Positions 33,016-48,995 are shown, numbered from the stretch's first letter. The stretch: DNA of 64,000 nt from Candidatus Gastranaerophilales bacterium (GCA_944325315.1 CALVAA010000003.1:1-64000), one strand, 5' to 3'. Program-made: numbers and translations. The notes: generated by a model from the letters alone, not told the origin.

Positions 33016-33780
33016 CTATTTAACAAGATATGTTGCGTATAAGTCGTTTTTTGTATCTATTTCAATAATTTTATAAGCGCAATTTTTTGAATAATTTTCT
33101 GTTATTATATGATAAATGCCGTCTATTTTTTCTTCAAAGTTAATTCCATAATGGCCGCTTATTATTGCTTTTATATTATTGTATTTTAAAATTACTTCTT
33201 TGTAGTTTTCGATTTTTGCTGTTTCAAGCCACTTTGATTTTGTAGGTAAAATCGGGAAATGTTGTAAAATTATAATCTCTTTGTCTTTGTTTTTGCTAAG
33301 CACATCATCAAGCCAAACAAGCTCTTTTTTTGAGTAGTATCCGTTTGATGATTGGAAAAATTCTTTAGAGCCATCCATTACAACAAACAGATATCCGTTT
33401 TTTTTGAAAGTGTAGTTCGGTTTTTTGCTGTGAAAAAATTTTACTCTTCTTACTCTTTTTAAATAATATTCTTTGTCTATTCCGCTTGAAGCCAAGACAT
33501 CCGTTGAACCTAAAAGAACATAGCATTTTTTATTTACTTTTTTTAAAAGGTATAAAAAGGTATTCAGATTGTTTATATTTGTTTTTGAAATATTGTTGCC
33601 GCCAAATACAACAAAATCAATATCTTTGTACTGATTAATTTCTTTAATTGTCTCCCGGAGACGATATGCGTTTTTTGTGTTTAAATTAATATCTGTAATT
33701 TGAATAAACTTAACTTCGCAAGCATAAGTACAAGAGCAAATAAAAAGCAGTAAAAATATTATTCTATAAACTTTTTTCAT
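33016..33780 (-). CDS. Degenerate secreted metallophosphoesterase (probable pseudoenzyme)
   Basis: A 254-residue protein with an N-terminal signal segment (about 5-20, LLLFICSCTYA) and a calcineurin-like fold. It aligns by eye with the intact phosphoesterase at 47850-48995. Its metal ligands are largely lost: DxH is Asp30-Ile-Asn32, GD is GlyGlyAsn62, GNHD is Gly-Ser-Thr-Asp94, and GHxH is Gly-His210-Tyr-Gly212. Only the QHFP histidine (174) and parts of the others remain. The frame is intact, suggesting a retained non-catalytic role. A TATTCT box ends 6 bases before the ATG. A Cys in SCTYAC could be a lipoprotein site, though the match is weak. Confidence 0.75.
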   Translation of the reverse strand: MKKVYRIIFLLLFICSCTYACEVKFIQITDINLNTKNAYRLRETIKEINQYKDIDFVVFGGNNISKTNINNLNTFLYLLKKVNKKCYVLLGSTDVLASSGIDKEYYLKRVRRVKFFHSKKPNYTFKKNGYLFVVMDGSKEFFQSSNGYYSKKELVWLDDVLSKNKDKEIIILQHFPILPTKSKWLETAKIENYKEVILKYNNIKAIISGHYGINFEEKIDGIYHIITENYSKNCAYKIIEIDTKNDLYATYLVK

Positions 33781-33934
33781 AGTTTAAGAATAATATAAAA
33801 ATACTTTTTTTAACAATTTTAAAAGTGCAGTTATTTACAAAATGTTAAAATATCTGCTTATTAAATGGCAATTTTCTTTTATTCCTGATAATATAAAACC
33901 TGCCCCAATAAAAAGAAAGGGATTATATTGAAAA

Positions 33935-35431
33935 ATGAATAGACTATTTACTTTATTATTTACGTTGTTTTTGGGTTTACCTTGTGCTAATGCAATGAAT
34001 GTGGACAGTTTTATAGATAAAAACGTAGCTCCGATTTCAGATAAAATTGCAGAAATTATTTTTTATCAAATTAACTTTTTTGGCTCAAAAGTTCCCTTGA
34101 TAATTTTTTGGATTTTATTTGCAGGTATATTTTTTACAATATACTTTAAAGGAATATGCGTATGGGGTTTTAAACACGCACTTGATCTTATAATAAAACC
34201 AAAAGATAACGGGGAAAACTGTGGCGAAGTATCTTCACTCCAGGCTCTTGCAACAGCCCTTTCCGGTACAATAGGCATAGGTTCAATAGCGGGGGTTGCA
34301 ATCTCTATTTCAATAGGAGGTCCGGGTGCTGCTTTTTGGATTTTTGCAGGTGCGCTTTTAGGAATGTCTATTAAATTTGTTGAAGCGACTCTTGCTGTTA
34401 AATACAGAAGATTTAATGAAGACGGTTCTGTATCCGGCGGACCTATGCACTATATTGCCCATGGCTTGACAAGAAAGAAGTTGAGATGGTTAGGCCAACC
34501 TTTGTCTGTTATTTTTGCAATCCTTTGTATAGGGGGAGGTATAACGGGCGGTAATATGATACAAATTAATCAATCCGCTCATCAAATAATATTTATTACA
34601 GGCGGCGCAGAAAGTTTTTTACATGGGTCTACTTGGATATTTGGTTTAATTGTGGCAATTCTTATAGGTTTGGTTACTGTTGGAGGGATTAAAAGTATTG
34701 CTAAAATTACATCAATACTTGTTCCTACGATGTGTGCTATGTATATCATTTCGGGTATAATCGTAATTTTAGCGAATATTACAAATATTCCAAGCGCCCT
34801 TTTGTTGATTTTAAAAGAGGCGTTTCATCCGACAGCAGTAGCCGGCGGGGTGTTCGGAACAATAATTATAGGCCTGAGACGATCCGTCCAGTGTAATGAA
34901 GCCGGAACCGGCGCTGCTGCTATTGTGTATGCAGCGGCACAGACAAAAGAACCTGTTTCGCAAGGTTTTGTTGCTCTGTTAGAAACATTTTTAACGGGTG
35001 TTTTGTGTTTGTTTACTTCTTTTGCAATTATTTTTTCAAATACTTGCACGCAAGCTGCAAAAAATATTTCCGGAATTGAGCTTGCTTCAAATGCATTTAA
35101 ATCTGTAATTCCTTTTTTCCCGATAATTTTATCAATTATTGCAATAATGTTTGCTCTTTCAACCTTGATATCGTGGGCGTATTACGGCCAAAAAGCCTGG
35201 ACGTTTTTATTTGGAGAAGGCAAAAAAAGAGCGCTTGCCTTTAATTTGATATATTGCATTTTTATCGTAATAGGTTCATCCTTAAATGTTAAATCGATAA
35301 TTGAAATAACTGATGCTATGATGATAGCTATGTGTGTACCAAATATTATTGCTCTTTATATTTTGTGTCCCGAAATAAAAAGAGATTTAATTGAATACTG
35401 CCATAAATTTAAATTGACAAAGTTGTTTTAG
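33935..35431 (+). CDS. Sodium:alanine/glycine symporter (AGCS family)
   Basis: A 498-residue inner-membrane transporter with about 11 predicted helices, importing alanine or glycine with Na+. ALSGTIGIGSIAGVA and GGPGAAFWIF, then VSGGPMHYI and QCNEAGTGAAAI, are hallmark AGCS segments. The N-terminus has a hydrophobic stretch (1-20) that looks like a cleavable signal. An AAAGGGA lies 12 bases before the ATG, which is rather far. A terminator follows. Confidence 0.93.
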   Translation: MNRLFTLLFTLFLGLPCANAMNVDSFIDKNVAPISDKIAEIIFYQINFFGSKVPLIIFWILFAGIFFTIYFKGICVWGFKHALDLIIKPKDNGENCGEVSSLQALATALSGTIGIGSIAGVAISISIGGPGAAFWIFAGALLGMSIKFVEATLAVKYRRFNEDGSVSGGPMHYIAHGLTRKKLRWLGQPLSVIFAILCIGGGITGGNMIQINQSAHQIIFITGGAESFLHGSTWIFGLIVAILIGLVTVGGIKSIAKITSILVPTMCAMYIISGIIVILANITNIPSALLLILKEAFHPTAVAGGVFGTIIIGLRRSVQCNEAGTGAAAIVYAAAQTKEPVSQGFVALLETFLTGVLCLFTSFAIIFSNTCTQAAKNISGIELASNAFKSVIPFFPIILSIIAIMFALSTLISWAYYGQKAWTFLFGEGKKRALAFNLIYCIFIVIGSSLNVKSIIEITDAMMIAMCVPNIIALYILCPEIKRDLIEYCHKFKLTKLF

Positions 35432-35446
35432 AATTTATAAAATAAT

Positions 35447-35481
35447 AAAACTCCCTGAAGTAATGAATTTCAGGGAGTTTT
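35447..35481. terminator. Bidirectional terminator between the symporter and rpsT
   Basis: AAAACTCCCTGAA (35447-35459) and TTCAGGGAGTTTT (35469-35481) form a 13-bp stem, flanked by A-rich and T-rich sides. It lies between convergent genes and can serve both. Confidence 0.88.
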
Positions 35482-35504
35482 AAATTAAAATAAGATTAAT
35501 AAAA

Positions 35505-35771
35505 CTATTTAGTTAATTTATTAACCGCTTTTGTTAATCTTGATTTTTTTCTGGCAGCGGTATTTTTGTGTAAAATACCTTTTCCTGCTGCTTTGTCGCA
35601 CAATTGATACACTTTAGACAATAATTCGTCTAACTGTGATTTGTCTTCGCTTTGAGCACAAGCCAAAACTTTTTTAATTGCAGTTTTGATTGATGTTTTA
35701 AAAGCAACGTTTCTTTCAGTGTTTCTTTGAGCAACAAGCACTCTTTTTTTTGCAGATTTAATATTTGCCAT
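35505..35771 (-). CDS. rpsT: 30S ribosomal protein S20
   Basis: An 88-residue basic, helical protein that binds 16S rRNA. MANIKSAKKRVLVAQRNTER, the AAGKGILHKNTAARKKSRL segment and the LTK end are diagnostic. A good AGGAAAAAC ribosome-binding site precedes it, and its leader contains a short hairpin. Confidence 0.97.
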   Translation of the reverse strand: MANIKSAKKRVLVAQRNTERNVAFKTSIKTAIKKVLACAQSEDKSQLDELLSKVYQLCDKAAGKGILHKNTAARKKSRLTKAVNKLTK

Positions 35772-35788
35772 TTTGTTTTTCCTTTCAC

Positions 35789-35810
35789 TAAATAACTATT
35801 AAGTTATTTA
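35789..35810 (-). promoter_or_regulatory. Hairpin in the rpsT leader
   Basis: TAAATAACT and AGTTATTTA form a perfect 9-bp stem with a 4-base loop (ATTA), 17 bases upstream of the ATG and just before the ribosome-binding site. S20 represses its own translation in other bacteria, so this might be a site of that control; the stem is all but A/T and weak. Confidence 0.4.
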
Positions 35811-35908
35811 AGAGGTTTGAGTGAGTTATTTATATAATACGCAAAAATAATTTTTTTTGCAAACGAATATATTTTGCCAAAAAATAAGATATGCTTATAA
35901 AACAAGAA

Positions 35909-35935
35909 CTTGCTTTTGAAATTTTCAAAAGCAAG
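35909..35935 (-). terminator. Terminator of the flagellin gene
   Basis: CTTGCTTTTGAA and TTCAAAAGCAAG form a 12-bp stem with a 3-base loop. On the minus strand TTCTTGTTTT follows. It starts 26 bases after the flagellin stop. Confidence 0.85.
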
Positions 35936-35961
35936 CCTTGTGGAGAGAAAATTGTTAATTA

Positions 35962-36930
35962 CTAGCCGCCTAATAAAGATAATGCCATAGATTGAAGCGA
36001 ATTAGCCTGTGTTAAAACAGAAACGTTGATTTGCTGCATAATTTGCTGTTGAGTTAAGTTAGTGGCTTCTTCAGCTATATCTGTATCAGTATAAACGGTT
36101 TTTGCTGATTCTAAAGATTCAATTCTTGTTGACATCGAATCATAGGAGCTGTCCATTCTGTTTTCATACGCCCCTATAAGCCCTCTGTTGGTTGAAAGTT
36201 GTGAAATTGCGTTTTGAATTTTTTCTATATATGCTCTGCAGTTTTCGTTTGTGGGGTCAAATGTTCTGTCGCAGTCTTCAAGATTGCCGGTAAAAGCGCT
36301 TTGGTCATCTTCGTATACCCAGCCGCCATCTTCACCTTTAACTACCCTTCTGTTTCCGCCTGTAGTATCGATGTATAAATATGGGTTTAATTCATCCGGC
36401 AGTTCAACATCGAATGCTTCAACGTGGCAGTCAGTAAGTGCCGGTGAAATATCTAAAATAGATAGTTCGCTTGCATCAGGACCCATTTGTACAATGATTT
36501 TATCTACTGTACCGTCAAGCATGGTTCTGCCGTTAAAATTTGTTGTGTCAGCTAAACGATTAATTTCGTCCAGTCTTTCAATAATTTCATCAACTGCCGC
36601 AGTTCTTGAATCTTCATCATTTGTATCGTTGGCCATATTAACTAAAAGGTCATTGATACGTTGAAAATGGTCACTGATTGATACCATGCCGTTTTCCGCA
36701 ATGTCTAAAAAGCTTGTAGCAGTTTGAATGTTTTGTTGTGCTTGTTTTGAGCCTCTTATAAGGGCCTCCATGTTTTCCGAAATTACCAATCCTGCCGCAT
36801 TATCTCCGGCTCTGTTAATTTTAAGACCGGTAGATAGCCTCGTTAAGGTGTCCGTCAAATTATTTGTGACACTGTTAAGGTTCATGCGGGTTACAAAGGA
36901 TGGTATGTTTGTTCCCAATGTAATTGCCAT
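35962..36930 (-). CDS. fliC: Flagellin
   Basis: Filament subunit, 322 residues. The N-terminal D0/D1 region has TRLSTGLKINRAGDNAAGL and the C-terminal region has NLTQQQIMQQINVSVLTQAN then SLQSMALSLL. The central domain (about 140-225) is short, giving a small flagellin. The start at 36930 is chosen because GGAGAG lies just before it and because the sigma-28-type promoter would start transcription near 36953; the ATG at 36954 would be at or before the RNA start. It is well separated from the hook cluster and the sigma factor. Confidence 0.95.
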   Translation of the reverse strand: MAITLGTNIPSFVTRMNLNSVTNNLTDTLTRLSTGLKINRAGDNAAGLVISENMEALIRGSKQAQQNIQTATSFLDIAENGMVSISDHFQRINDLLVNMANDTNDEDSRTAAVDEIIERLDEINRLADTTNFNGRTMLDGTVDKIIVQMGPDASELSILDISPALTDCHVEAFDVELPDELNPYLYIDTTGGNRRVVKGEDGGWVYEDDQSAFTGNLEDCDRTFDPTNENCRAYIEKIQNAISQLSTNRGLIGAYENRMDSSYDSMSTRIESLESAKTVYTDTDIAEEATNLTQQQIMQQINVSVLTQANSLQSMALSLLGG

Positions 36931-36959
36931 TTTTTCTCTCCATTTTTTTGACATTAGTA

Positions 36960-36986
36960 ATATCGTTTTTTATTTTTTATACTTTA
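36960..36986 (-). promoter_or_regulatory. Sigma-28 (FliA)-type promoter of flagellin
   Basis: On the minus strand TAAA (36983-36986) is followed by 15 bases and AACGATAT, whose CGATAT lies at 36960-36965. The flagellar sigma-28 consensus is TAAA-N15-GCCGATAT or similar, so six of eight -10 positions match. It predicts an RNA start near 36953 and a leader of about 23 bases. Confidence 0.7.
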
Positions 36987-37012
36987 GTATACGTTTTTTA
37001 TACTTTAGTATA
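36973..37012. repeat. Tandem 19-bp palindromic repeats upstream of flagellin
   Basis: TTTTTTATACTTTAGTATA occurs twice, at 36973-36991 and 36994-37012, a 21-bp period (two helical turns). Each holds the 14-bp inverted repeat TATACT-TT-AGTATA. The first overlaps the flagellin -35. They may be paired operators on one DNA face. They lie in the 194-bp gap shared with rsmE. Confidence 0.75.
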
Positions 37013-37124
37013 ACCAAATGGCTAAAAGTAGTAGTATTATTGTTTTTTGGCGTCTTAAGCGATTTTTTAAAATATCCTCTATATATATTAGAAAATTTTA
37101 ATTTTATGCTAAAATTATACTGTT

Positions 37125-37856
37125 ATGCCGCATTTTTTAATCAGAGAAGAAGAAATAAAAGACAGTATAATAAGACTTGTTGATAAGGAAAATCTTTTTC
37201 ATTTGACAAGGGTTTTGAGAATAAAGCCCAATGAAAAAGTAAAATTTATCGATAAAAATCATATAGTGTACACTTGCGAGGTAAAAAAAACAGATAAAAA
37301 CTGTCTTGAAGCAAAGATTTTATCTAAAGAAGAATCTGCAAGATGCCTAAATATAAACATTGTCCTTGTCCAATCGGTTCTAATGACTGATGCGCAAAAT
37401 CTTTTAATAGCAAATGCAACTCAAACGGGAGTTAAAAAAATATATCCTGTTTTATCGGATAACGTTTCTGTTTCAAAAAAGAATACGGAAAATAGATCGG
37501 AAAAGTGGCAAAAAATTGTGCTTGAAAATTTTAAACAATGCGAACGGGCAGATATGGCTGAAGTTTTAGAAGTCGGTAATTTATTGGATGCGATTAAAAG
37601 ATTTGACAAAAAAAACGTACTTATTTTTGCTGAAAAATATGAAAACAGTACTGTTCAAACAGCCCTTAAAGATGTTGATAAGACTTCAACTATTGCTGTT
37701 GTAATAGGCCCTGAGGGCGGATTTTCAGAGAAAGAATTTGAATATTTCAAAAAAGAAAATTATAAACTTATAACTCTTGGAAAAATGATATATAAAGCTC
37801 CGAATGCAGTTATTGCAGCTCTTTCGAATGTTATATCGAGGTTGGAAGATGTTTGA
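37125..37856 (+). CDS. rsmE: 16S rRNA (uracil-1498-N3)-methyltransferase
   Basis: Methylates U1498 in the small-subunit decoding region, 243 residues. An N-terminal PUA-like domain (1 to about 70, with HLTRVLRIKPNE) precedes a SPOUT domain with IGPEGGFSEKEF (SAM knot) and the C-terminal ITLGKMIYKAPNAVIAALS. The terminal segment replaces the usual LG-x-RILRAETA, keeping the position but not the Arg-Glu residues. It overlaps cca by 8 bases. TAAAAT at 37110-37115 gives an RNA start only two or three bases before the ATG. Confidence 0.9.
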   Translation: MPHFLIREEEIKDSIIRLVDKENLFHLTRVLRIKPNEKVKFIDKNHIVYTCEVKKTDKNCLEAKILSKEESARCLNINIVLVQSVLMTDAQNLLIANATQTGVKKIYPVLSDNVSVSKKNTENRSEKWQKIVLENFKQCERADMAEVLEVGNLLDAIKRFDKKNVLIFAEKYENSTVQTALKDVDKTSTIAVVIGPEGGFSEKEFEYFKKENYKLITLGKMIYKAPNAVIAALSNVISRLEDV

Positions 37857-39162
37857 AAATGACAATGTTTTAAAATCTGCTAAAGATATATTCAAAAACT
37901 ACGAAGTTTATATTGTTGGAGGATATTTAAGGGATTTTTTTATTGAAGGTAAAATATCAAACGACAGAGACCTTGTATGTATTAATAATGCATATGATTT
38001 AGCCGGAGAAATGGCAGAAAAAATTAAGGGAACTTTTATTGAATTAGACAGTGAAAATAAAATATACAGAGTTGTTTTAAAAGATAAAATAAACTATTTT
38101 GATATTTCTCAAGCGTTAAATAACAGCCTTGAAGAAGATATTAAAAGGCGTGATTTTACAATAAACTCTATGTTTTATGATTTAAATAAAAATAAATTAA
38201 TAGATTTAACTTCGGCAAAATCAGACATTGATAATAAAATCATAAGAGCATACAATTTTAATAATTTAATAGACGATCCTTTAAGATTATTAAGAATGTA
38301 TAGGTTTTTGTCTAAAACAGGTTTTAAAATCGAAAAAGAGTTGAATTTATTTGTAAGCCAAAATTTTAACCTTATAAATAATGTTGCAAAAGAGCGAATT
38401 AACTATGAAATAATAAAAATATTTGAAGGTAAATATACAGCAGAAACCCTTTTAAAAATGCTTGAAGATAATACCTTGGAAACTATTTTCCCTTTTGTTA
38501 AAGAAATTAAAAAAGTTCCTTCTAATTCCCATCACCATCTTGATTTGATTCATCATTCAATTGAAACGGTAAGGTTAATTGAAACTGATAATCCAATTTT
38601 AAAAATTGCAGCTTTTTACCATGATATAGGTAAACCAAAAACCTGGACAATAGAACCCTTTGGGCGTCATCGTTTTATAGGACATGATATTGTCGGAAGC
38701 AGGATTGCAAAAGATGAGCTTAAAAATTTAAAGTTTTCTAATAAACAAATTGAATACATTACAAAAATGATAAAATACCACATCTATCCTGCAAGTTTAA
38801 TAAACTGCGAGGATGCAAATAAAGCTTTTGCAAGATTTGTTAAAAAATTAAATAAAGATGCTTTGGATGTTATTAGTCTGTCTAAAGCAGACAGACTGTC
38901 AGCCCAGGGAAAAGCAGTAAGCAGAGAAATGACAGAAAAAGCATTAAATCATCTGGAAAATTTAAAAAATTACTACATAAAAGTTCAGTCAATTATAGAA
39001 AGTCCTAAAAGTTTTGTCGATGGTAATGAAATTATGAAAGTTTTAAATATAAAACCATCTAAAAAGGTTGGGGAGATACTGGATGTTATTAAAGAATTAC
39101 AACTTTCAGGCATGATTTTAACAAAACAGGATGCAATTGATTATATTAAAAATAACTATTAA
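37849..39162 (+). CDS. cca: CCA tRNA nucleotidyltransferase with HD domain
   Basis: Adds or repairs the 3' CCA of tRNAs, 437 residues from the ATG at 37849, which has a GAGG ribosome-binding site. The nucleotidyltransferase head shows IVGGYLRDFF and the metal aspartates in NDRDLVC, then RRDFTINSM and the RNA-binding DDPLRLLRMYRF. A C-terminal HD domain (about 240-360) has HHLDLIHHS and FYHDIGKPKTW. It is needed because the tRNA gene here lacks an encoded CCA. It overlaps the convergent aminotransferase stop by four bases (TTAA). A poly(A) polymerase role is an alternative. Confidence 0.9.
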   Translation: MFENDNVLKSAKDIFKNYEVYIVGGYLRDFFIEGKISNDRDLVCINNAYDLAGEMAEKIKGTFIELDSENKIYRVVLKDKINYFDISQALNNSLEEDIKRRDFTINSMFYDLNKNKLIDLTSAKSDIDNKIIRAYNFNNLIDDPLRLLRMYRFLSKTGFKIEKELNLFVSQNFNLINNVAKERINYEIIKIFEGKYTAETLLKMLEDNTLETIFPFVKEIKKVPSNSHHHLDLIHHSIETVRLIETDNPILKIAAFYHDIGKPKTWTIEPFGRHRFIGHDIVGSRIAKDELKNLKFSNKQIEYITKMIKYHIYPASLINCEDANKAFARFVKKLNKDALDVISLSKADRLSAQGKAVSREMTEKALNHLENLKNYYIKVQSIIESPKSFVDGNEIMKVLNIKPSKKVGEILDVIKELQLSGMILTKQDAIDYIKNNY

Positions 39163-40346
39163 ATAATTTCTCTGATGCTTTCGGCTAAACGCCTGATGCC
39201 TTCTTTAATTGTCTTATCATCCGCATTTGTATAATTTAGACGTAAAGTGTTAACATTATTTATACCGACATAAAAGGGATCTCCGGGAACAAAAGCGACA
39301 TTTTTTTCTATTGCTTTATTAAATAAATCAACCGAACTAACCCCATCAGGAAGACTTGCCCAACTGAACATGCCGCCTTTTGGAATTGTAAAAGTTACAT
39401 TGGAAGGAAATTCTTTTTGCATTGCTTCAACCATGGCTTTGGCTTGAGATTTATATAATTTTTTAATTTTTTCAATATGCTTATCCAAATCATTGTTATA
39501 AAGATAGTCACTTATTAAATATTGTGCAAATATGTTTGAATGCAAATCCGAAGCTTGCTTTGCGGTTTCAAGCATTTTTATTATTTCTTTATTGGCTATA
39601 ATATATCCAAGGCGCATTCCGGGTGTAATAATTTTTGAAAAAGAGCCGAGATATATGTTTTTTTCACTTTCATTTAACCCGATATACGGAAGTCTTTCGT
39701 TATTATCAAAACGGAGTTCTCCGTACGGATCATCTTGAATCAGAATTAAATCTTTATCTTTAATTTGATTAAAAACGCTAATCCTGTTTTGTGCGCTGTA
39801 AGTTAAACCTGTCGGATTTTGAAAATTCGGAATCAAATAAGCCAATTTTGGCTTTTGTTCATCTAAAACTTTTTTTAACTCATTAATATCCAATCCGTCA
39901 TCATTAAGTTTTGTTTGAATAAAATCCGCTCCGTATAAACAAAAAGACTGCAAAAGGCCAAGATAAGAAGGTTTTTCGACTAGTACTTTATCGTTTTTAT
40001 TGATAAAAACTTTTCCTATCAAATCAAGCGCCTGTTGAGAACCTGTTGTTATAATAACATTATCAAGAGTAATATTTTCCATTTTTTGGATAATTTTATA
40101 TCTTTGAACAATATATTCCCTTAAAGACTCTAACCCCATTGTTGTAGAGTATTGATATATTTTAGCTCCAAATTTTTGAGCAATTCTGTTCATGGAAATT
40201 TTTAATTCTTCTTGCGGAAAAGAAATAGGGTTTGGCAAACCTCCCGCAAAAGAAATTATTTCAGGATTTTGTGTTACTTTTAAAATTTCTCTTATAAAAG
40301 AAGAGGGTGTATTTTTGATTCTTTCGGAAAAATATTTTTCAAACAT
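39159..40346 (-). CDS. PLP-dependent class I aminotransferase (LysN/2-aminoadipate type)
   Basis: 395 residues from MFEKYF at 40346, where an AAGGA lies 10 bases upstream; ATG or TTG starts further upstream are possible. PSSFIREILK, SFAGGLPNP, the NFQNPTG motif, DDPYGELRF, SFSKIITPGMRLGY (PLP lysine) and LRLNYTN mark the branch containing 2-aminoadipate and MocR-related aminotransferases. It may act broadly on aromatic or branched amino acids. No biosynthetic partner is adjacent. Confidence 0.88.
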   Translation of the reverse strand: MFEKYFSERIKNTPSSFIREILKVTQNPEIISFAGGLPNPISFPQEELKISMNRIAQKFGAKIYQYSTTMGLESLREYIVQRYKIIQKMENITLDNVIITTGSQQALDLIGKVFINKNDKVLVEKPSYLGLLQSFCLYGADFIQTKLNDDGLDINELKKVLDEQKPKLAYLIPNFQNPTGLTYSAQNRISVFNQIKDKDLILIQDDPYGELRFDNNERLPYIGLNESEKNIYLGSFSKIITPGMRLGYIIANKEIIKMLETAKQASDLHSNIFAQYLISDYLYNNDLDKHIEKIKKLYKSQAKAMVEAMQKEFPSNVTFTIPKGGMFSWASLPDGVSSVDLFNKAIEKNVAFVPGDPFYVGINNVNTLRLNYTNADDKTIKEGIRRLAESIREII

Positions 40347-40400
40347 ATTCTTAATGTCCTTTTTTGTATTAATCATACTACATAAAGCATTATGATACAA

Positions 40401-42026
40401 TCAATCTTGTTTTTTGAAAGCGGAAAATACGCCTGCAAATAAAATCGGAACAATCAAATAGTTTTGATAAATATATCTCAATAACGAAATAGGCCCGAAT
40501 AACACGGTTAAAAACAGGGCGGGGATAATTAAAAGCGGAACAATAATGTTATATTGTTTTTTATAAAAAAGAACAAAAAATGAAAATAAAACAAACCAAA
40601 AGTTAAAAGCCATCGAAAACATTAAAAAACTTACGGGATTTTTTTCAAATGCATTATACAAAAATATGTCATCGTAAATTTTTCTTAGAATCGGATTAAA
40701 ACAGTATGACTTTATGGGAATTCCGTTAATATTATCCCAGCGGTTGTATGTTAGGAGGAAATAGTGCTCTTGCATTGTCAAAAATTTTTTTGGTAAATAC
40801 CAATATGTATGATTGTTCAATAAAAACGCATTTATATAGTCTTTTGGATGCAAAATTCCCCATTTTAAATAAAGCGCAACAAAAAGAAGTGGTTTTTTTC
40901 TTATTGAATTTTCAATAAAATCACTATGCAAACTCGAACTTTTGGGATTTAATTTCATAGAATCGGCACAAAAAGGATGATAATTTAATTCATTGTTTTC
41001 TGAGACGATTTGTCTGAATGCAAGCTTTTCCGTTTTGTTCAGTTCGCTGTCATACCTTACTCTTACAAGACCCATTTGTTGCAGTAAAACACCTATTGAA
41101 GAGGCTATTGGAGGAGGTTTGATTTCAAAAATATTGTTTTTTAATATCGAAAAAGAAAAGTATAAAATTATAGGGGTTAGAAAAACAATCAAAGAACTTT
41201 TTATGTCCTTTTTTAAAAAATATATTAAAAAAGGACATATTAATATATAAGCAACAAAACCGTTATGTCTGAATAAAAACATTAAAAAAATCGTGAAAAT
41301 TAAACAGATTTTATACTTATTATCTTTAATCCGGTTTTGATTGTTAAATAAATCAATCAGAAGCAATATAAAAAGCAAAACAAAAGCACCAAAAAGACTG
41401 TCTTTTGTTGTTATCAGAGAAAACATCTGATTAATCGGATGAAAAGCAAAAAATAAAAGTGCAAAAATTTTTACAAAAGAATTAATTCCATATTTCGAAA
41501 AAATAAAAATACAGTATGAAAAAACACAAGCCAAAACAAGCATTTGAAAAAACACATGTAGAAAAATAGCTATAGTAGACGATTTTAAAAACGAAGATAA
41601 AATCAGAGTTAAATAAACCAAAAAACAATGTGTGATTGGGTGTATTTCGATATAGTCATGCTTTATAAAAAAATCCGCTTCCCAAATAACGTCATATGTG
41701 AAAACACCGGGAAAATATGCTAAAAAAGCCGGTATATAACAAATTAAAATAAAAATTAGACAGTTAAAAAAACATCTTTTTTCGTCCTTGAAGAAAATAT
41801 TTTCAATTTTTTTATATAATTTAACTTTTTCAATTTTATTGTTAAGCCAGGGAAGATATTTTAAAAACAAAAAACATAATAAAAAAGAAAAAATCAAACT
41901 AAAAACAAAAACCCATATATTGTTTGACGTAAAAATATCAAAAAATCTGTCAAGTTTATAGCCAAGAAAAGTTAAAAAGGAAAAAATTAAAGAAAATATT
42001 AATGAATATTTTAAAATTCTCGTCAA
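40401..42026 (-). CDS. Multi-pass membrane protein, GT-C glycosyltransferase-like
   Basis: 541 residues with about 11-12 hydrophobic helices. An FPGVFTYDVIWEADFF segment after the second or third helix, with an acidic residue near the outer face, and HPINQMFSLITTKDS resemble DUF6020/GT-C proteins that transfer sugars from polyprenyl-phosphate donors. The start is TTG at 42026, 5 bases after AGAGG. It directly follows a GT2 gene (1-base gap), which could make the donor. The specific reaction is unknown. Confidence 0.7.
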   Translation of the reverse strand: MTRILKYSLIFSLIFSFLTFLGYKLDRFFDIFTSNNIWVFVFSLIFSFLLCFLFLKYLPWLNNKIEKVKLYKKIENIFFKDEKRCFFNCLIFILICYIPAFLAYFPGVFTYDVIWEADFFIKHDYIEIHPITHCFLVYLTLILSSFLKSSTIAIFLHVFFQMLVLACVFSYCIFIFSKYGINSFVKIFALLFFAFHPINQMFSLITTKDSLFGAFVLLFILLLIDLFNNQNRIKDNKYKICLIFTIFLMFLFRHNGFVAYILICPFLIYFLKKDIKSSLIVFLTPIILYFSFSILKNNIFEIKPPPIASSIGVLLQQMGLVRVRYDSELNKTEKLAFRQIVSENNELNYHPFCADSMKLNPKSSSLHSDFIENSIRKKPLLFVALYLKWGILHPKDYINAFLLNNHTYWYLPKKFLTMQEHYFLLTYNRWDNINGIPIKSYCFNPILRKIYDDIFLYNAFEKNPVSFLMFSMAFNFWFVLFSFFVLFYKKQYNIIVPLLIIPALFLTVLFGPISLLRYIYQNYLIVPILFAGVFSAFKKQD

Positions 42027-42027
42027 A

Positions 42028-42960
42028 TTAACCTCTTGAATTCAGTAGAAGTTCTCTGCTTCTTTTGAACATTTTAATTATAACACTTAAAATCAGCCCT
42101 GTTGAAAACATTAAAATTGAAAATATTGCAAAAAAAATTGAAACAAACAGAGTGGGAAACCTTAAAACCATGCCTGTTTTTAAATATTGAACAAAAACAG
42201 GAGCAAAAAGAACAATTGAAATTAAAAGCAGAATAAAACTTAAAAAAGAAAAAAATTCAAAAGGTTTGTAGTCTTTAAACAAGATAAATATTGTTTTTAA
42301 AACACAAAGACCGTCTTTGTATGTATTTAATTTTGATTTAGAACCTTCAATTCTTTCTTTGTATTCTACCGGAATTTCTTTAATTTTATAGCCAAAATCC
42401 AGCGCTAAAATTGTCATTTCGGTTTCAATTTCAAAACCTTCGCTAACAGGACAAAGCGTTTTAACCGTTCTTTTGTTTAAAAGACGATATCCGCTCATAA
42501 TATCATTTAAATTGGTTTTAAATAAAAAATTAATAAAATTTTTTACCAGATTGTTTCCAAAAGAATGAAACAAACGTTTGTTTTCACTGTGATAGTTTAC
42601 AGAAAGCCTGTCTCCTACAATCATATCCGGTTTTTCATTTAGCATTGCTTCAAGCATGCAAACGGCGCTTTTTGCAGGATATGTGTCATCGCCGTCAACT
42701 AAAAGATAATAATCGGCATCAATTTCTCTGAACATTCTTTTTATTACGTTGCCTTTTCCGACTTTTTCTTCAAAACGGTAATATAAGTTTGGGAGTTTTA
42801 TGCTTTTAACTATCTCGGCGCTTTTATCGTTTGAATTGTTGTCGTAAACATATATTTTGCAGTTGTGGCTTTTAAAAACTTCAAAAAAATCTAAAACTAC
42901 TTTTTTTATTGTTATCTCCTCGCTGTGACAAGGTATCAAAATTGCCAAAGAATAATCCAT
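42028..42960 (-). CDS. GT2 polyprenyl-phosphate glycosyltransferase
   Basis: 310 residues. A DPM1/GtrB-like GT-A domain (1 to about 225) has ILIPCHSEE, VYDNNSNDKS, LLVDGDDTYPA (metal-binding DxD type) and MSGYRLLNKRT. Two C-terminal membrane helices (about 230-255 and 270-295) follow. It probably makes a polyprenyl-phospho-sugar used by the adjacent GT-C-like membrane protein. It has no ribosome-binding site; an extended -10 TGC-TATAAT lies 6 bases before the ATG. Confidence 0.88.
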   Translation of the reverse strand: MDYSLAILIPCHSEEITIKKVVLDFFEVFKSHNCKIYVYDNNSNDKSAEIVKSIKLPNLYYRFEEKVGKGNVIKRMFREIDADYYLLVDGDDTYPAKSAVCMLEAMLNEKPDMIVGDRLSVNYHSENKRLFHSFGNNLVKNFINFLFKTNLNDIMSGYRLLNKRTVKTLCPVSEGFEIETEMTILALDFGYKIKEIPVEYKERIEGSKSKLNTYKDGLCVLKTIFILFKDYKPFEFFSFLSFILLLISIVLFAPVFVQYLKTGMVLRFPTLFVSIFFAIFSILMFSTGLILSVIIKMFKRSRELLLNSRG

Positions 42961-42996
42961 TTGCTAATTATAGCACAGTTAATCTATAATTAAAAT
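42961..42996. promoter_or_regulatory. 36-bp divergent leaderless promoter
   Basis: The whole gap between two divergent genes is 36 bases. Leftward, TATAAT (plus-strand ATTATA at 42967-42972) with a preceding TGC lies 6 bases before the ATG at 42960. Rightward, TATAAT (42985-42990) lies 6 bases before the ATG at 42997, with a TTGCTA at 42961-42966 as a possible -35 (18-base spacer). The two -10 boxes are 12 bases apart, so two polymerases cannot bind at once. Confidence 0.75.
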
Positions 42997-43698
42997 ATGC
43001 AATATAATGCGGCAGATAACCTTGAAGTGATGAAAGAGGCAAAAAATTATAATAATTTTTTGGCTGATTCTTTTTATTTTGTTATAAAACGGTATAACTA
43101 TAAAAAAATATTGGATTTTGGCTGCTCTGACGGATATTTCATTGAAAAAATTCTTGAAAAAGACCCTAAACTTTCAATTGAAGGAATAGAAATTGATGAA
43201 AATTTTATTAAAATGTTGAAAAATAAAGATATAAAAGTCTTTTCTTCCGTAAATGAAACAGAAGAAAAATACGATTTTATATATTCTCTAAACACGCTTG
43301 AGCATATAAAAAATGATGAAGAAGAAGTTTTCAATCTGTGTAACAAATTAAAGAAAGAAGGAAGACTGTTTTTATTTGTACCCGCTTTTGCTTTTTTATT
43401 TTCATCAATGGATGAAAAAACAGGACATTACAGACGATATAGCAAAAAAAAATTAGAACAAATTTTAAATAAAAACAATTTTAAAATAGAAAAAATCGAA
43501 TACTGTGATGCTTTAGGTGCAATTTTTACGCTTTTATATATCATTAAAGACAAATTTTTAAACAATAAAGGAAATATTAATAAAATTCAGATAAAAGTTT
43601 TTGATTTTGTTTTTCCTTTTGGTGTTCTTTTGGATAAAATTATTTTTTCGAAATTTTTTGGTAAAAATTTAATGGTTTTGGCAAAAAAAATGTATTGA
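42997..43698 (+). CDS. Class I SAM-dependent methyltransferase
   Basis: 233 residues, Rossmann-fold methyltransferase. The SAM-binding ILDFGCSDGYF (about 32-42), the acidic GIEIDENF, and SLNTLEHIKNDEE (motif post II) are clear. HYRRYSKKKLEQILNKNNF is seen in small-molecule or polysaccharide methyltransferases of the UbiG/Methyltransf_11 group. It is divergent from the GT2/GT-C pair, so a lipid-linked or surface-sugar substrate is possible. Confidence 0.83.
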   Translation: MQYNAADNLEVMKEAKNYNNFLADSFYFVIKRYNYKKILDFGCSDGYFIEKILEKDPKLSIEGIEIDENFIKMLKNKDIKVFSSVNETEEKYDFIYSLNTLEHIKNDEEEVFNLCNKLKKEGRLFLFVPAFAFLFSSMDEKTGHYRRYSKKKLEQILNKNNFKIEKIEYCDALGAIFTLLYIIKDKFLNNKGNINKIQIKVFDFVFPFGVLLDKIIFSKFFGKNLMVLAKKMY

Positions 43699-43755
43699 TT
43701 CAAATTATTAAAGTGCTAATATTTATATCCGGAAGTATTAACAAAAAGAGAAATT

Positions 43756-45162
43756 ATGTTTGACAACCATACAGATGAATTAAAATGGATTATTTTTATA
43801 GTAAGCGCAATCGGCGGCTTTTTAGCCATGATGGATTCTAATACGGTTAATGTTGCATTGTTTGAAATTGCGCAAAATTTTGAAATAAGTCTTTCTCAGG
43901 CTCAATGGGCAGTAACGGCTTATATTTTAATTCTGTCCACATTTTTAACGTTGTTTGGAAAATTGAATGACCTGATTTCAAGAAAAAATCTTTATGCTCT
44001 GGGTTACCTTGTTTTTGCCCTTGGTGCTTTTTTAAATACGCTTTCATTTAATCTTTTAAGCTTAATACTTGCAAGAATAGTCCAGGCTCTTGGCGCAAGT
44101 ATTCTTCTTTCAAATAATTATGCTATAATTTCATCCGTATTCAAAGGAAATAAAAGAGCCCGTGCACTTGGTTTTTCTACTGCACTTATGGCGCTTGCCG
44201 GAATGTCAGGGCCTATGGTGGGCGGTTTTTTGATGCATTATGTGACCTGGAGAGCAATTTTTATTCCGAGTATTGTTATAGGGCTTATTGGTGCTTATTT
44301 TTCAAAAAAATATATTCCTGAAATCGTCCACAAATCAGAATTTAAATTTGATTATCTCGGCATGGTTTTACAACTCGTGGCTATACTTTCAATGCTTTTG
44401 GTTATATCAAAAGGGCATGACTGGGGATTTTTATCAAACAGGGTTATCGCTTTAAGTATTATATTTGTTATTTTCGCAATACTTTTTTATATAAGAGAAA
44501 AATCCATATCTTATCCTGTTGTTAATTTTGAGCTTTTTAAATCAAAGGTATTTACCTACGGAAATTTTGCTCTTTTGATAGCATACTTTGCTCTTTTTAC
44601 AAATGCGCTATTGTTTCCGTATTATACGCAGGAAATTTTAAAAGTCTCTCCTTTAATGACGGCTGTCTTGATTTTGCCTTTTTCTGTTATGTTTATGCTA
44701 ATGGCGCTTTTAAACGGTAAATTAAGCAAAAAACTTCACAGTTCTATTTTAATGACAACAGGAACGGTATTAATTGTATTGGGGTATATTATCTTTACAA
44801 CAATAGGAGAAAAACTTACATATATAAATATAATACTTGCTCAAGCTCTTATAGGTGCAGGTTCCGGTTGTTATCAGCCAAGTGTCAATGCTTTAATTGT
44901 CTCCATTGCGCCTATGGGAAAAATGGGGATTGCTTCGGGAATCCTTGCTATGTTTAGAAATGTCGGCATGCTTCTTGGGATTTCAATATCGGTTAGTATA
45001 TTTGATTTTGCAAAAAACTATTATACAAAACAAGGGTTTAATTATGCAGACTCTTTTATAGCTGCATATCATTGGGCAATATATTGGGCAATAATTTCCG
45101 GTATAGTTTGTATTGTGCTTTCTTATATGTCACACAAGGCTTATAAAAAAGAAAAAGTTTAA
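43756..45162 (+). CDS. MFS drug/metabolite efflux transporter (DHA2/EmrB type)
   Basis: 468 residues with about 14 hydrophobic helices. FLAMMDSNTVNVALFEIAQN in helix 1 (DHA2 motif D1), GKLNDLISRKN (motif A) and LGFSTALMALAGMSGPMVGG (motif C, antiporter) identify the H+-coupled 14-helix export family. A ribosome-binding site (AAGAGAA) precedes it. The substrate is unknown. Confidence 0.9.
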   Translation: MFDNHTDELKWIIFIVSAIGGFLAMMDSNTVNVALFEIAQNFEISLSQAQWAVTAYILILSTFLTLFGKLNDLISRKNLYALGYLVFALGAFLNTLSFNLLSLILARIVQALGASILLSNNYAIISSVFKGNKRARALGFSTALMALAGMSGPMVGGFLMHYVTWRAIFIPSIVIGLIGAYFSKKYIPEIVHKSEFKFDYLGMVLQLVAILSMLLVISKGHDWGFLSNRVIALSIIFVIFAILFYIREKSISYPVVNFELFKSKVFTYGNFALLIAYFALFTNALLFPYYTQEILKVSPLMTAVLILPFSVMFMLMALLNGKLSKKLHSSILMTTGTVLIVLGYIIFTTIGEKLTYINIILAQALIGAGSGCYQPSVNALIVSIAPMGKMGIASGILAMFRNVGMLLGISISVSIFDFAKNYYTKQGFNYADSFIAAYHWAIYWAIISGIVCIVLSYMSHKAYKKEKV

Positions 45163-45184
45163 TACATTAAACCCCTGATATTAT

Positions 45185-45213
45185 TTGCATTATTTATTTG
45201 ATAATAGTAAAAT
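45185..45213 (+). promoter_or_regulatory. Promoter of the sigma-factor gene
   Basis: TTGCAT (45185-45190), a 17-base spacer, then TAAAAT (45208-45213). The RNA start would be near 45220, leaving a leader of about 16 bases without a Shine-Dalgarno, containing part of an inverted repeat (AATCT ... AGATT). Confidence 0.6.
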
Positions 45214-45235
45214 CTAATTATCAGATTAGTATACA

Positions 45236-45913
45236 ATGGTAGCAAAGTTGCAAGCTAATAAATTAAAAGACTATATTGATATAATACAAAAAGTTGCAAG
45301 GGTAGAATACAAAAGAATTCCGTCTCACATGTTGGATTGTGAGGAGCTCGTTTCAATAGGTATCATTGCGCTTCAGGCTTTGTTTAAAAACAAGACTGAT
45401 GAGCAATTAAAAAACTACAATACCTCCTATATTGCAACGGCTGTCCGCTGGGCAATAAGAAATGAACTAAGAAACAGATACAAATGGTACACTCTTAAAC
45501 ATAAAAAAGAAGACGGTGAATACACTGAAGAAGAATACAGTGAAAACCAATCCACTTTAGATGTTTCACCTGCTAAAGTAAGAGAAGCCGTATATGAAAC
45601 TATTTTATCAATAGATTCAATAATGGCAGCAAGTTCAGATAATGATTCCCCGTTTGACTTTATAAAAGATACATCGGCAATGCCTGATGAAAAAGCGGAA
45701 ATTTCGGAATTAAGTAAACTCATCAAAGAGGCGATTGCAAAATTGCCTCAAAAGGATAGAACTATTGTAGAATATCGTTTTTACAGGAATATGCAGGTAA
45801 AACAAATTGCGCAAATGGTCGGACTTTCAAGCTCAAGAATAACAAGAATAGTCCAAGCATCACTCAACCAAGTGCGTGAATATTTGCAAAAAAGAGGGCT
45901 TACAAGTTTTTGA
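45236..45913 (+). CDS. Sigma-70 family factor, FliA (sigma-28)-like
   Basis: 225 residues. Region 2 (about 25-85) has MLDCEELVSIGIIALQAL and AVRWAIRNELRNR. Region 4 (about 165-222) has LPQKDRTIVEYRFYRNMQVK then IAQMVGLSSSRITRIVQ, typical of FliA-like factors. It is shorter in region 3 than E. coli FliA. It is a candidate partner for the sigma-28-type promoter at 36960-36986. It lies next to metabolic genes rather than flagellar ones, so a stress-type sigma remains possible. Confidence 0.75.
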   Translation: MVAKLQANKLKDYIDIIQKVARVEYKRIPSHMLDCEELVSIGIIALQALFKNKTDEQLKNYNTSYIATAVRWAIRNELRNRYKWYTLKHKKEDGEYTEEEYSENQSTLDVSPAKVREAVYETILSIDSIMAASSDNDSPFDFIKDTSAMPDEKAEISELSKLIKEAIAKLPQKDRTIVEYRFYRNMQVKQIAQMVGLSSSRITRIVQASLNQVREYLQKRGLTSF

Positions 45914-45937
45914 TTTAATTAATTTAGGAGAGGAAAT

Positions 45938-47860
45938 ATGCTGTTGGAAAAAAGCACAAAAGAATTATTTTCAAAAGAATATAAAAAAACAATTCAAGAA
46001 GCGCTTAATGTTTTAGGAAAGAAGAATTTTGCCCTTATACTGCAAGGTGTAAGTTTTCCTTCAAATCCGGATGAAAATACGGGATTTGGTACATATAATT
46101 CAGAAGGTGCTAAAGAATTATTTAACTATATTCAGGATGTCTTTAGTGCAATTCAGCTAGGTCCAAGCGGCAAAACAAAATTATCGGATTCTTCTCCTTA
46201 TACGGGAACTGTCTTTTCCAAAAATCCTCTTTTTATAAATTTAAAGGCATTAACAGAGGAAAAATGGAACAGAATTTTATCTCAAAAGACACTGGATAAA
46301 ATTGTCGAGATGAATCCAAACAAAAATATAAACAGAGCAGCTTATGTTTATGCTAATGAAAGTTTTGAATTGGCAAGCAGAGAATTTTATACAAATTTCA
46401 AAAAAAATGCTTCAACGGAATTAAAAAAAGAATTTGAAGCATTCAAAAAGGAAAATGCTTTTTGGCTGGATAAAGATGCTTTGTATGAAGCGCTTGCAAT
46501 TGAAAATAACTCAGATTATTGGCCTCAGTGGAAAAATGAGACCGATAAAAAATTGTTCGGCGATATAGATAAAAAAAGAGCCGAAAAAAGAATAAAAGAA
46601 ATTGAAAAAAAATATTATGACACAATTGAAAGATATAAGCTCGAGCAATTCATAGTTCAAAAACAAAGCGAAGAAACTCTTGAATATACAAAAAGACTCG
46701 GTTTAAAGCTGATTGCAGACAGACAAGTGGCTTTTTCAGACAGAGATAACTGGGCATATCAGTCGCTTTTCTTAAAAGACTGGTGTCTTGGATGCCCGCC
46801 GGATTATTTTTCAAATGACGGACAAGCCTGGGGCTTTAGCGTGGTTGATCCCGATAAACTTTTTAATAAAGACGGGTCTTTAGGGCAAGCAGGAATTTTA
46901 TTAAAAAGATTATATTTAAAAATGTTTAAAGAAAACCCTGGTGGTGTAAGAATCGACCACACGGTAGGTTTAATTGACCCATGGGTATATAAAAAAGGGC
47001 ATTTGCCAAAAGCAGAAGAAGGTGCAGGAAGACTCTATTCTTCTCCAAATCATCCTGAACTTAAAAAGTATTCCATTGCAAAAGAAGAAAATATAAACAA
47101 AACACCAACTGAAGGCAAATTTGTAACTCCTGATGACGAAAAGTGGATTGATAATTTATCCGAAGAGCAAATTTCTTTGTATGGAAGAATGATTGAAAAA
47201 ATCGTTATTGCAGCTGCAGTAGATGCAGGGCTTGACAAGAATTCGATAATAGCGGAAGACCTCGGAACGCTTACTTACCCTGTGGTAAAAGTTATGGAAA
47301 AATATGCACTTCAAGGAATGAAGCTCGTTCAATTCGTTGTGCCTCAGGAATACAATCATCCCTACAGATGCAAAAATATCACCCAAAATTCCTGGGTAAT
47401 GGTTGGAACGCACGATAATGAACCTATCAGAATGTGGGCTTCAAAGTTGGTTAATACGGAAAAAGCAAATCCGTATATTAAAAATCTTATTGAAGATTTA
47501 TGCGCTGAATTCGGAAACAAAGATGAGATTTGGCATAGAATGTATACGGATGAAAAATTCTTTGCTTTTATGAAGCTTGTTGAATGTTTTGCATCTAAAG
47601 CACAGAATGTTCAAATATTCTTCACTGATTTCTTTGGAATAAACGAGGTGTATAATGTTCCCGGCACTTCCGGTGATCCCAACTGGACACTTCGTTTAAA
47701 CGCTAATTTTAAAGAACTTTACAGAGAAAAACTAAGAAGCGAAGAAGCTTTGAATCTGCCTTTGGTTATGATATATGCAATGAAAGCAAGGGGCTGGGAA
47801 TTTTATAAAAACCATCAGGAATTACTGGATAAACTGGAACAGCTTGTAAATGAAAAATAA
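45938..47860 (+). CDS. malQ: 4-alpha-glucanotransferase (GH77)
   Basis: Transfers alpha-1,4-glucan chains between acceptors, in glycogen or maltodextrin metabolism. 640 residues; the GH77 core shows the nucleophile Asp340 (GGVRIDHT), acid/base Glu439 (IIAEDLGT) and stabiliser Asp492 (GTHDNE), plus the 3-D signature FFGINEVYNVPGTSGDPNW. Residues 1 to about 40 differ from common MalQ starts. It starts with an AGGAGAGG ribosome-binding site. Its end overlaps the following phosphoesterase by 11 bases. It works with the GH57 enzyme and phosphohexomutase in this window. Confidence 0.92.
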   Translation: MLLEKSTKELFSKEYKKTIQEALNVLGKKNFALILQGVSFPSNPDENTGFGTYNSEGAKELFNYIQDVFSAIQLGPSGKTKLSDSSPYTGTVFSKNPLFINLKALTEEKWNRILSQKTLDKIVEMNPNKNINRAAYVYANESFELASREFYTNFKKNASTELKKEFEAFKKENAFWLDKDALYEALAIENNSDYWPQWKNETDKKLFGDIDKKRAEKRIKEIEKKYYDTIERYKLEQFIVQKQSEETLEYTKRLGLKLIADRQVAFSDRDNWAYQSLFLKDWCLGCPPDYFSNDGQAWGFSVVDPDKLFNKDGSLGQAGILLKRLYLKMFKENPGGVRIDHTVGLIDPWVYKKGHLPKAEEGAGRLYSSPNHPELKKYSIAKEENINKTPTEGKFVTPDDEKWIDNLSEEQISLYGRMIEKIVIAAAVDAGLDKNSIIAEDLGTLTYPVVKVMEKYALQGMKLVQFVVPQEYNHPYRCKNITQNSWVMVGTHDNEPIRMWASKLVNTEKANPYIKNLIEDLCAEFGNKDEIWHRMYTDEKFFAFMKLVECFASKAQNVQIFFTDFFGINEVYNVPGTSGDPNWTLRLNANFKELYREKLRSEEALNLPLVMIYAMKARGWEFYKNHQELLDKLEQLVNEK

Positions 47861-48995
47861 AATATATAAATTATTATTATCCGTATTTGTTGTATTGGCT
47901 CTGATATTAAGCGCTGAAGCGTTTTCTTTCAGAAATATGACTTTGGATTTTATCCAAATTTCTGATACACATATAACAAATAGAACTGATACAAGTTATA
48001 AAGCGCTCGGATCTTCAAAAGAACTTTTAGCTGATGCAATAGAACAGATAAATCAGATAAAAGGATTGGATTTTGTGCTTTTTACGGGTGATTTAGTAGA
48101 TTTTCCCACAGAAGAAAATTTTTATAATTACTATAAACTCTTAACAAAGCTTCAATATCCCTCATTAAATACTTTCGGAAACCATGATTTATATACGGGC
48201 GAAATGGATAAAAGCCAAATACTCGAAACAGTCAAAAAATATAATCCTAATTATATTTTTAATGATACATACTTTGCTTTTAGTCCAAAAACCGACTATA
48301 GGATAATTATTCTTGATGCGAATATTGAAAACGAACGCACCTCAAACGGCCAGCTAAGTGAAGAACAGCTCAGATTTTTAGACAATGAACTAAGCCAAAA
48401 TCAAGACAAGGTGGTTGTTATTGCAATGCATCATGCCTCGCTTGAGCCTTTTATTGCAAAAGAGCATTCGCTTCTAAATGCAAATGAATTTAATGAAATT
48501 TTGTTAAAATATAAAAATCCGATAATAGTGTTGTCGGGTCATTACCATGCAGCTAAAATACGCCATTTTGGCAACCTTGTTTTTGTGTCAACTCCTTCAA
48601 TGGTGACTTATCCTATGGCATTTCGCCACATTAAAATTACAAACTACAAAGATAGAGTAGTTTATAAGTTTGATTTCCATCAAACAAATTTAAGCGATGT
48701 CCTTGAGCAAAACAGGCAAAACGTTATTTCTTACGCAACACTGGCAGGAAGCGAAAGAGACAGAAATCTTGAATTTACATATCACAAAAAACATCCTAAA
48801 TCAGTACGCTATAAAAGAAATAAAATCAAAAAGGCACTCAAGGAATCAAAAACAAGTAAAAGGGAAATAAAAAAATTAACAACCCCAAAGAAAATCAAAA
48901 CCAAAAAAGAAAAGAAAACTAAAATTAAAAAAGAAAGAAAAATTTTCAATTTTAAAAAACAAAAAAAACAACAGCTATCACCGGAAGAAAATTAA
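47850..48995 (+). CDS. Secreted metallophosphoesterase (intact) with basic tail
   Basis: 381 residues with a signal peptide (about 5-25). The calcineurin-like domain (about 32-275) has all metal motifs: DTH (39-41), GDLVD (Asp81), GNHD (110-113), AMHH and the GHYH motif. Residues about 310-381 are an extreme Lys-rich tail (KIKTKKEKKTKIKKERK), probably an envelope- or nucleic-acid-binding extension. It overlaps malQ by 11 bases. The gene at 33016-33780 is a shorter, degenerate paralogue. The substrate is unknown. Confidence 0.85.
   Translation: MKNKIYKLLLSVFVVLALILSAEAFSFRNMTLDFIQISDTHITNRTDTSYKALGSSKELLADAIEQINQIKGLDFVLFTGDLVDFPTEENFYNYYKLLTKLQYPSLNTFGNHDLYTGEMDKSQILETVKKYNPNYIFNDTYFAFSPKTDYRIIILDANIENERTSNGQLSEEQLRFLDNELSQNQDKVVVIAMHHASLEPFIAKEHSLLNANEFNEILLKYKNPIIVLSGHYHAAKIRHFGNLVFVSTPSMVTYPMAFRHIKITNYKDRVVYKFDFHQTNLSDVLEQNRQNVISYATLAGSERDRNLEFTYHKKHPKSVRYKRNKIKKALKESKTSKREIKKLTTPKKIKTKKEKKTKIKKERKIFNFKKQKKQQLSPEEN

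Follow-up and report, generated by a model that had tools for sequence, protein, structure and literature searches.

The question raised by this locus is whether a member of an enzyme family that has lost much of its active site can be kept for a job other than catalysis. The window, i.e. the whole stretch of 64,000 nucleotides that was analysed, lies on contig C3 of a 1.81 Mb genome from the Gastranaerophilales, non-photosynthetic relatives of Cyanobacteria that are found in animal guts. A sequence-only reading of the window had pointed to two genes, here called A and B, as paralogous phosphoesterases, and proposed that A is catalytically dead and under selection for a non-catalytic function. 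It had located both genes correctly, in coordinates as well as in strand. The features needed here are:

33016-33780, minus strand: gene A (P0001), a probably secreted metallophosphoesterase-fold protein of 254 aa with a degraded active site (PF00149, E-value 5.7e-13)
33718-33780, minus strand: probable Sec signal peptide of gene A, residues 1-21, from the sequence, the helix at 2-14 and the lower pLDDT at 11-20
33685-33693, minus strand: motif I of gene A, DIN for DxH; Asp30 kept, His32 replaced by Asn
33595-33600, minus strand: motif II of gene A, GN for GD; bridging Asp62 replaced by Asn
33499-33510, minus strand: motif III of gene A, GSTD for GNHD; Asn92 and catalytic His93 replaced, Asp94 kept
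33259-33261, minus strand: motif IV of gene A, His174 kept at the position of a second-metal ligand
33145-33153, minus strand: motif V of gene A, GHYG for GHxH; His210 kept, His212 replaced by Gly
33935-35431, plus strand: agcS-like Na+:amino-acid symporter gene, divergent from gene A, its family named by reading its sequence
47850-48995, plus strand: gene B (P0002), a paralogous metallophosphoesterase of 381 aa with intact motifs (PF00149, E-value 7.8e-16)
48687-48992, plus strand: Lys-rich C-terminal tail of gene B, about residues 280-381, beyond the catalytic domain, from the sequence

Both proteins belong to the calcineurin-like metallophosphoesterase superfamily, with PF00149 scores of 50.2 bits for A and 59.5 for B at a cut-off of 21.5. 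They align at 28% identity with an E-value of 1e-23, and given this alignment and the two family scores the paralogy is no chance likeness. The best NCBIfam match is CpdA (NF008359) for A and B alike, and neither reaches the equivalog cut-off of 225 bits for the 3',5'-cAMP phosphodiesterase CpdA (47.7 bits for A, 76.0 for B). Orthologs of B have a Lys-rich C-terminal tail that is alike in kind and varies in length and sequence.

A signal peptide and a promoter had also been proposed for A. The first is plausible: the N-terminus has a basic start followed by a hydrophobic helix at residues 2-14, and position 20, near the likely cleavage site, is Ala or Ser family-wide. The second is not supported, as the region holds 8 sigma-70-like matches against 6.9 +/- 2.5 in shuffled sequences, i.e. 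no excess.

Next, we consider the nine positions of the active site. From general knowledge of the superfamily we take site 1 to be formed by Asp30, His32, Asp62 and His212, and site 2 by Asp62, Asn92, His174 and His210, with His93 as the catalytic residue. B has the full motif set of a competent dinuclear enzyme (D-x-H, G-D, G-N-H-D/E, H and G-H-x-H), and all nine positions are canonical. In contrast, A reads D-x-N, G-N, G-S-T-D, H and G-H-x-G, and its nine residues are Asp30, Asn32, Asn62, Ser92, Thr93, Asp94, His174, His210 and Gly212, the changes being exactly those that had been claimed. A is therefore without His32, Asp62, Asn92, the catalytic His93 and His212, in agreement with its description as dead. 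However, it retains Asp30, Asp94, His174 and His210, which that description did not mention; in a phmmer alignment His210 falls on the first His of the GpdQ/Rv0805-type motif V. Judged by its residues, A has lost only half of its metal site, namely site 1 together with the catalytic His, whereas the site-2 His pair is invariant. From the residues that are missing we infer that A would be unable to hydrolyse.

Structure prediction had been named as one check on this, together with a codon-based test of selection and a search for frame loss in relatives. The AlphaFold2 model of A, based on an alignment of 74 rows, has a mean pLDDT of 95.0 and a pTM of 0.89, and it contains the complete alpha-beta-beta-alpha metallophosphoesterase fold; the model of an intact A ortholog has a pLDDT of 93.2. 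Rv0805 and GpdQ are the nearest solved structures for A and for the intact ortholog alike. By VIA-align, A matches GpdQ with Z 28.0 at 1.9-2.0 Å over 221 residues, and Rv0805 with Z 27.2. In the model, the fold is undamaged by the loss of the site.

In the genus of the window each species is represented by one draft assembly of MAG type, and an A ortholog with an open frame and no internal stop is present in 28 of 28 genomes, at 55-72% identity to the window protein. The open frame that had been noticed in the window is thus general, and frame loss is not seen in the genus. The site is degraded in all 28: none has the catalytic His or His212, and His32 is found in a single one. Ser, Asn, Thr or Gln stand in place of the catalytic His. 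Asn62 is found throughout and position 92 is often Ser, which indicates a weakened metal site. Asp30, Asp94, His174 and His210 are each present in 28 of 28. Further, some positions that vary among intact A proteins are the same in all 28, for example Trp184.

To describe selection we use omega from the GY+F3X4 codon model, calculated for the mature part of the protein. For A in the genus omega is 0.038, compared with 0.032 in the intact sister clade and 0.030 in the large intact A clade; B of the same genus has 0.029. By tree lengths synonymous change is saturated, and most pairs have a dS close to saturation; these values are therefore rough and only their sign is certain. The closest A pairs have dS of 0.57-1.08 and dN of 0.039-0.075, giving dN/dS of about 0.04-0.11. 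On the codon evidence, A is under strong purifying selection that is relaxed only slightly relative to its intact relatives. Together with the open frames and the complete fold, this comparison supports the proposal of selection on a non-catalytic function. The walls of the pocket in A show only a trend towards conservation within the genus, with an entropy of 0.78 against 1.00 (P 0.077).

The two genes have separate neighbourhoods. The agcS-like gene is adjacent to A, and divergent from it, in 27 of the 28 genomes, and B sits between malQ and an MBL-fold gene, in the order malQ-B-MBL at loci throughout the genus, these two genes likewise being named by reading their sequences. The motifs of B are intact at all 25 genus loci that were read. 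A tandem second B occurs in G013 (L142) and G025 (L143), both of the genus; the second copy of G025 is degraded and reads EENNKDHLH at the nine site positions.

Where A comes from is best seen in the wider set. The search took in 146 genomes of the family, with DNA from a sample of these, while other families in the order were lightly sampled. All close relatives of gene A in a DNA search are from Candidatus Gastranaerophilales. In most genera the nine positions of A are canonical, in others they are degraded, and one more degraded A (L236) is located outside the family, in another one. We calculated a maximum-likelihood tree of 116 rows from which the nine site columns were left out. Here A of the window's genus and intact A from four further genera form a group with support 100/98. 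By this tree, A is an old gene and has intact enzymes of sister genera as its orthologs. The homology to B holds, but a recent origin of A as a dead copy of B is rejected, the two being old and separate lineages.

On the tree the degraded state corresponds to 11 changes, at least 8 of which are forced by well-supported branches, and rows that lack nothing but the catalytic His to 6 changes, although such parsimony counts carry no direction. Since B is intact, as are nearly all A-like proteins in the order's other families, loss is the economical reading. When all 35 degraded A rows are forced into one clade the cost is 413 log-likelihood units; one ancestral loss common to all degraded A is rejected with p-AU 4e-72, for a group defined by residue state after the tree had been seen. 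We found no earlier description of such recurrent loss in this family in the open-access literature.

The catalytic His is absent in 63 of 123 A rows. His174 and His210 are retained in every one of these 63, and Asp94 in 62, with Glu in the remaining row; among the other degraded A outside the genus Asp94 is retained in 24 of 24. For His32 and His212 both are lost in 51 of the 63 rows, both are kept in 11 and they are split in 1. In phylogenetically independent pairs the two residues go in the same direction in about 7 of 9 and in opposite directions in 0 (sign test, about 0.016). The 11 rows that have no catalytic His but keep His32 and His212 suggest that the catalytic His is often the first to go. 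Many lineages have Lys or Arg at its position, with 7 changes on the tree. At B loci from degraded-A genomes of other genera, B is intact in 21 of 21.

Stops are found in a few A copies. In another genus, the second A copy of genome G123 (L078 and L245, on G123:C1) is interrupted by three in-frame stops, and its GHxH motif reads GHFW; by its sequence this copy is truly decaying, unlike the open frames of degraded A. An A of an otherwise intact clade (L128, G093:C51:6011-6778) has one internal TAA, which is an error or a recent loss.

Several known proteins resemble A in part. MPPED2, a mammalian metallophosphoesterase-domain protein, has Gly where a conserved catalytic-site His is expected, and this Gly stands, as it does in A, at the final His position of GHxH. 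With Gly252 for His, MPPED2 binds AMP and GMP tightly and has low cyclic-nucleotide hydrolysis (PMC6627064). Compared with MPPED2, A has lost four further positions, is from a different kingdom and is no ortholog. Certain enzymes of the superfamily are active without the His of GNHD (PMC6627064). GpdQ of Enterobacter aerogenes, Rv0805 of M. tuberculosis and CpdA are class III cyclic-nucleotide phosphodiesterases, and A shares their fold along almost its entire mature length; it differs from them in being, by its predicted signal peptide, secreted and in having lost five site residues, including the equivalent of Asn97 in Rv0805. Replacement of this Asn by Ala inactivates Rv0805 (PMC3776917; PMC13001264), and catalysis-independent effects of Rv0805 are seen with the N97A mutant (PMC3776917). 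By analogy, the pocket of MPPED2 and the effects of N97A indicate that a non-catalytic role of this kind would be possible, not that A has one.

Other relatives appear in the fold search. Plasmodium GAP50 (PDB 3tgh), which has a purple-acid-phosphatase-like fold, matches A with Z 19.1. It is the membrane anchor of the glideosome complex (review PMC8949495). However, GAP50 is larger than A, has an unrelated biology and is also reported as an acid phosphatase. Chain F of Pol zeta (7s0t_F), the B-subunit of a eukaryotic B-family DNA polymerase, is also among the matches. The B-subunits of these polymerases are inactive subunits derived from phosphoesterases, but they are nuclear replication proteins and distant from A in sequence, and we know of no tendency to repeated loss among them.

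We think that A is probably a secreted pseudo-phosphoesterase, i.e. a protein that no longer hydrolyses and that selection maintains for a non-catalytic function. A pseudoenzyme is characterized by an enzyme fold that lacks conserved catalytic residues and by purifying selection, and the sequences together with the model place A in this class. The His174 and His210 pair kept in all rows without the catalytic His, the paired loss of His32 and His212, and new invariants of the genus such as Trp184 argue that this is not random decay. The protein would be located in the periplasm or envelope, with the class III phosphodiesterase / metallophosphoesterase fold and with hydrolysis gone. Its retained pocket (Asp30, Asn62, Asp94, His174 and His210) may still bind a ligand, which could be anionic and phosphorylated or could be one metal ion. 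In the envelope A may serve in binding, sensing or regulation, and its target or neighbour there might be an active phosphoesterase, for example B.

A different non-catalytic role would be that of a partner subunit, heteromeric, allosteric or scaffolding, of B or another envelope phosphoesterase, in which case the pocket residues would have a structural part only. Wherever B was read in degraded-A genomes it is there with its motifs intact, and among solved relatives GAP50 is described as an anchor, as would fit such a role. On the other hand, A and B are neither adjacent nor in one operon and each keeps its own conserved neighbourhood; further, B accompanies intact A as well, so its presence is not specific to the dead form. 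We regard a partner subunit as unlikely. The chance is smaller still that A is a slow or re-specialised enzyme, with weak or altered hydrolysis by a single-metal site made of Asn62, position 92, His174 and His210. Such an enzyme would agree with a site-2 His pair and an Asp94 that are invariant in every degraded lineage, and with MPPED2, where low hydrolysis and tight nucleotide binding go together in the Gly252 protein (PMC6627064). Lineages that have lost only the catalytic His may well remain active. In A of the window, however, five metal or chemistry positions are replaced together, among them the bridging Asp and the Asn whose loss inactivates Rv0805 (PMC3776917; PMC13001264).

That A is a slowly decaying pseudogene is hardly credible. 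Loss of the active site alone is what one would expect early in decay, and real decay does occur elsewhere, as in the second A copy of G123 with its stops. However, at 55-72% identity the frames are open in all 28 genomes and omega is far below 1, which refutes decay for the genus as a whole; the invariant Trp184, His174 and His210 and the divergent place beside agcS, kept in 27 of 28, speak against it as well.

If A is a pseudo-phosphoesterase, the order-wide pattern may have a broader meaning. Tentatively, and with rather less confidence than for A itself, we suggest that a secreted phosphodiesterase of Gastranaerophilales became a non-catalytic receptor at least 8 times independently, always losing site 1 and the catalytic His, always keeping the site-2 His pair and Asp94, and often acquiring Lys or Arg in place of the catalytic His. 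This would be a predictable route from a hydrolase to a protein that binds a phosphate ligand or a single metal. Dead members of enzyme families are common, and to our knowledge most of them arose once and are isolated examples; here, a small secreted family has apparently made the step from enzyme to pseudoenzyme many times within a single bacterial order. Intermediates in which the catalytic His alone is lost, and intact sisters, are natural controls, so the order of steps in the loss of catalysis and what selection retains are open to direct test. It should also be noted that all of these proteins pass the cut-off of PF00149 or of a closely related family and would be labelled phosphoesterases in annotation.

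Gene order gives no partner of A that is shared across genera. In other genera (loci L047-L145) its neighbours, named by reading their sequences, include a CNNM/CorC-like gene at 34 loci of an intact clade, an ArnT-like glycosyltransferase at 20 loci with intact and degraded A, a HAD phosphatase in the degraded g34 and g40, and a response regulator in the intact sisters of the window's genus.

Finally, the same genome has a third phosphoesterase outside the window (L246, G000:C9:13047-13859). It is YaeI-like with an N-terminal hydrophobic stretch and reads GETD for GNHD, while its remaining motifs look intact. Among YaeI-like proteins of the genus one group has GNHD at this motif, while other groups have GNED, GEND, GETD or GQQD, and by these motifs the catalytic His is being lost in the YaeI-like family as well.
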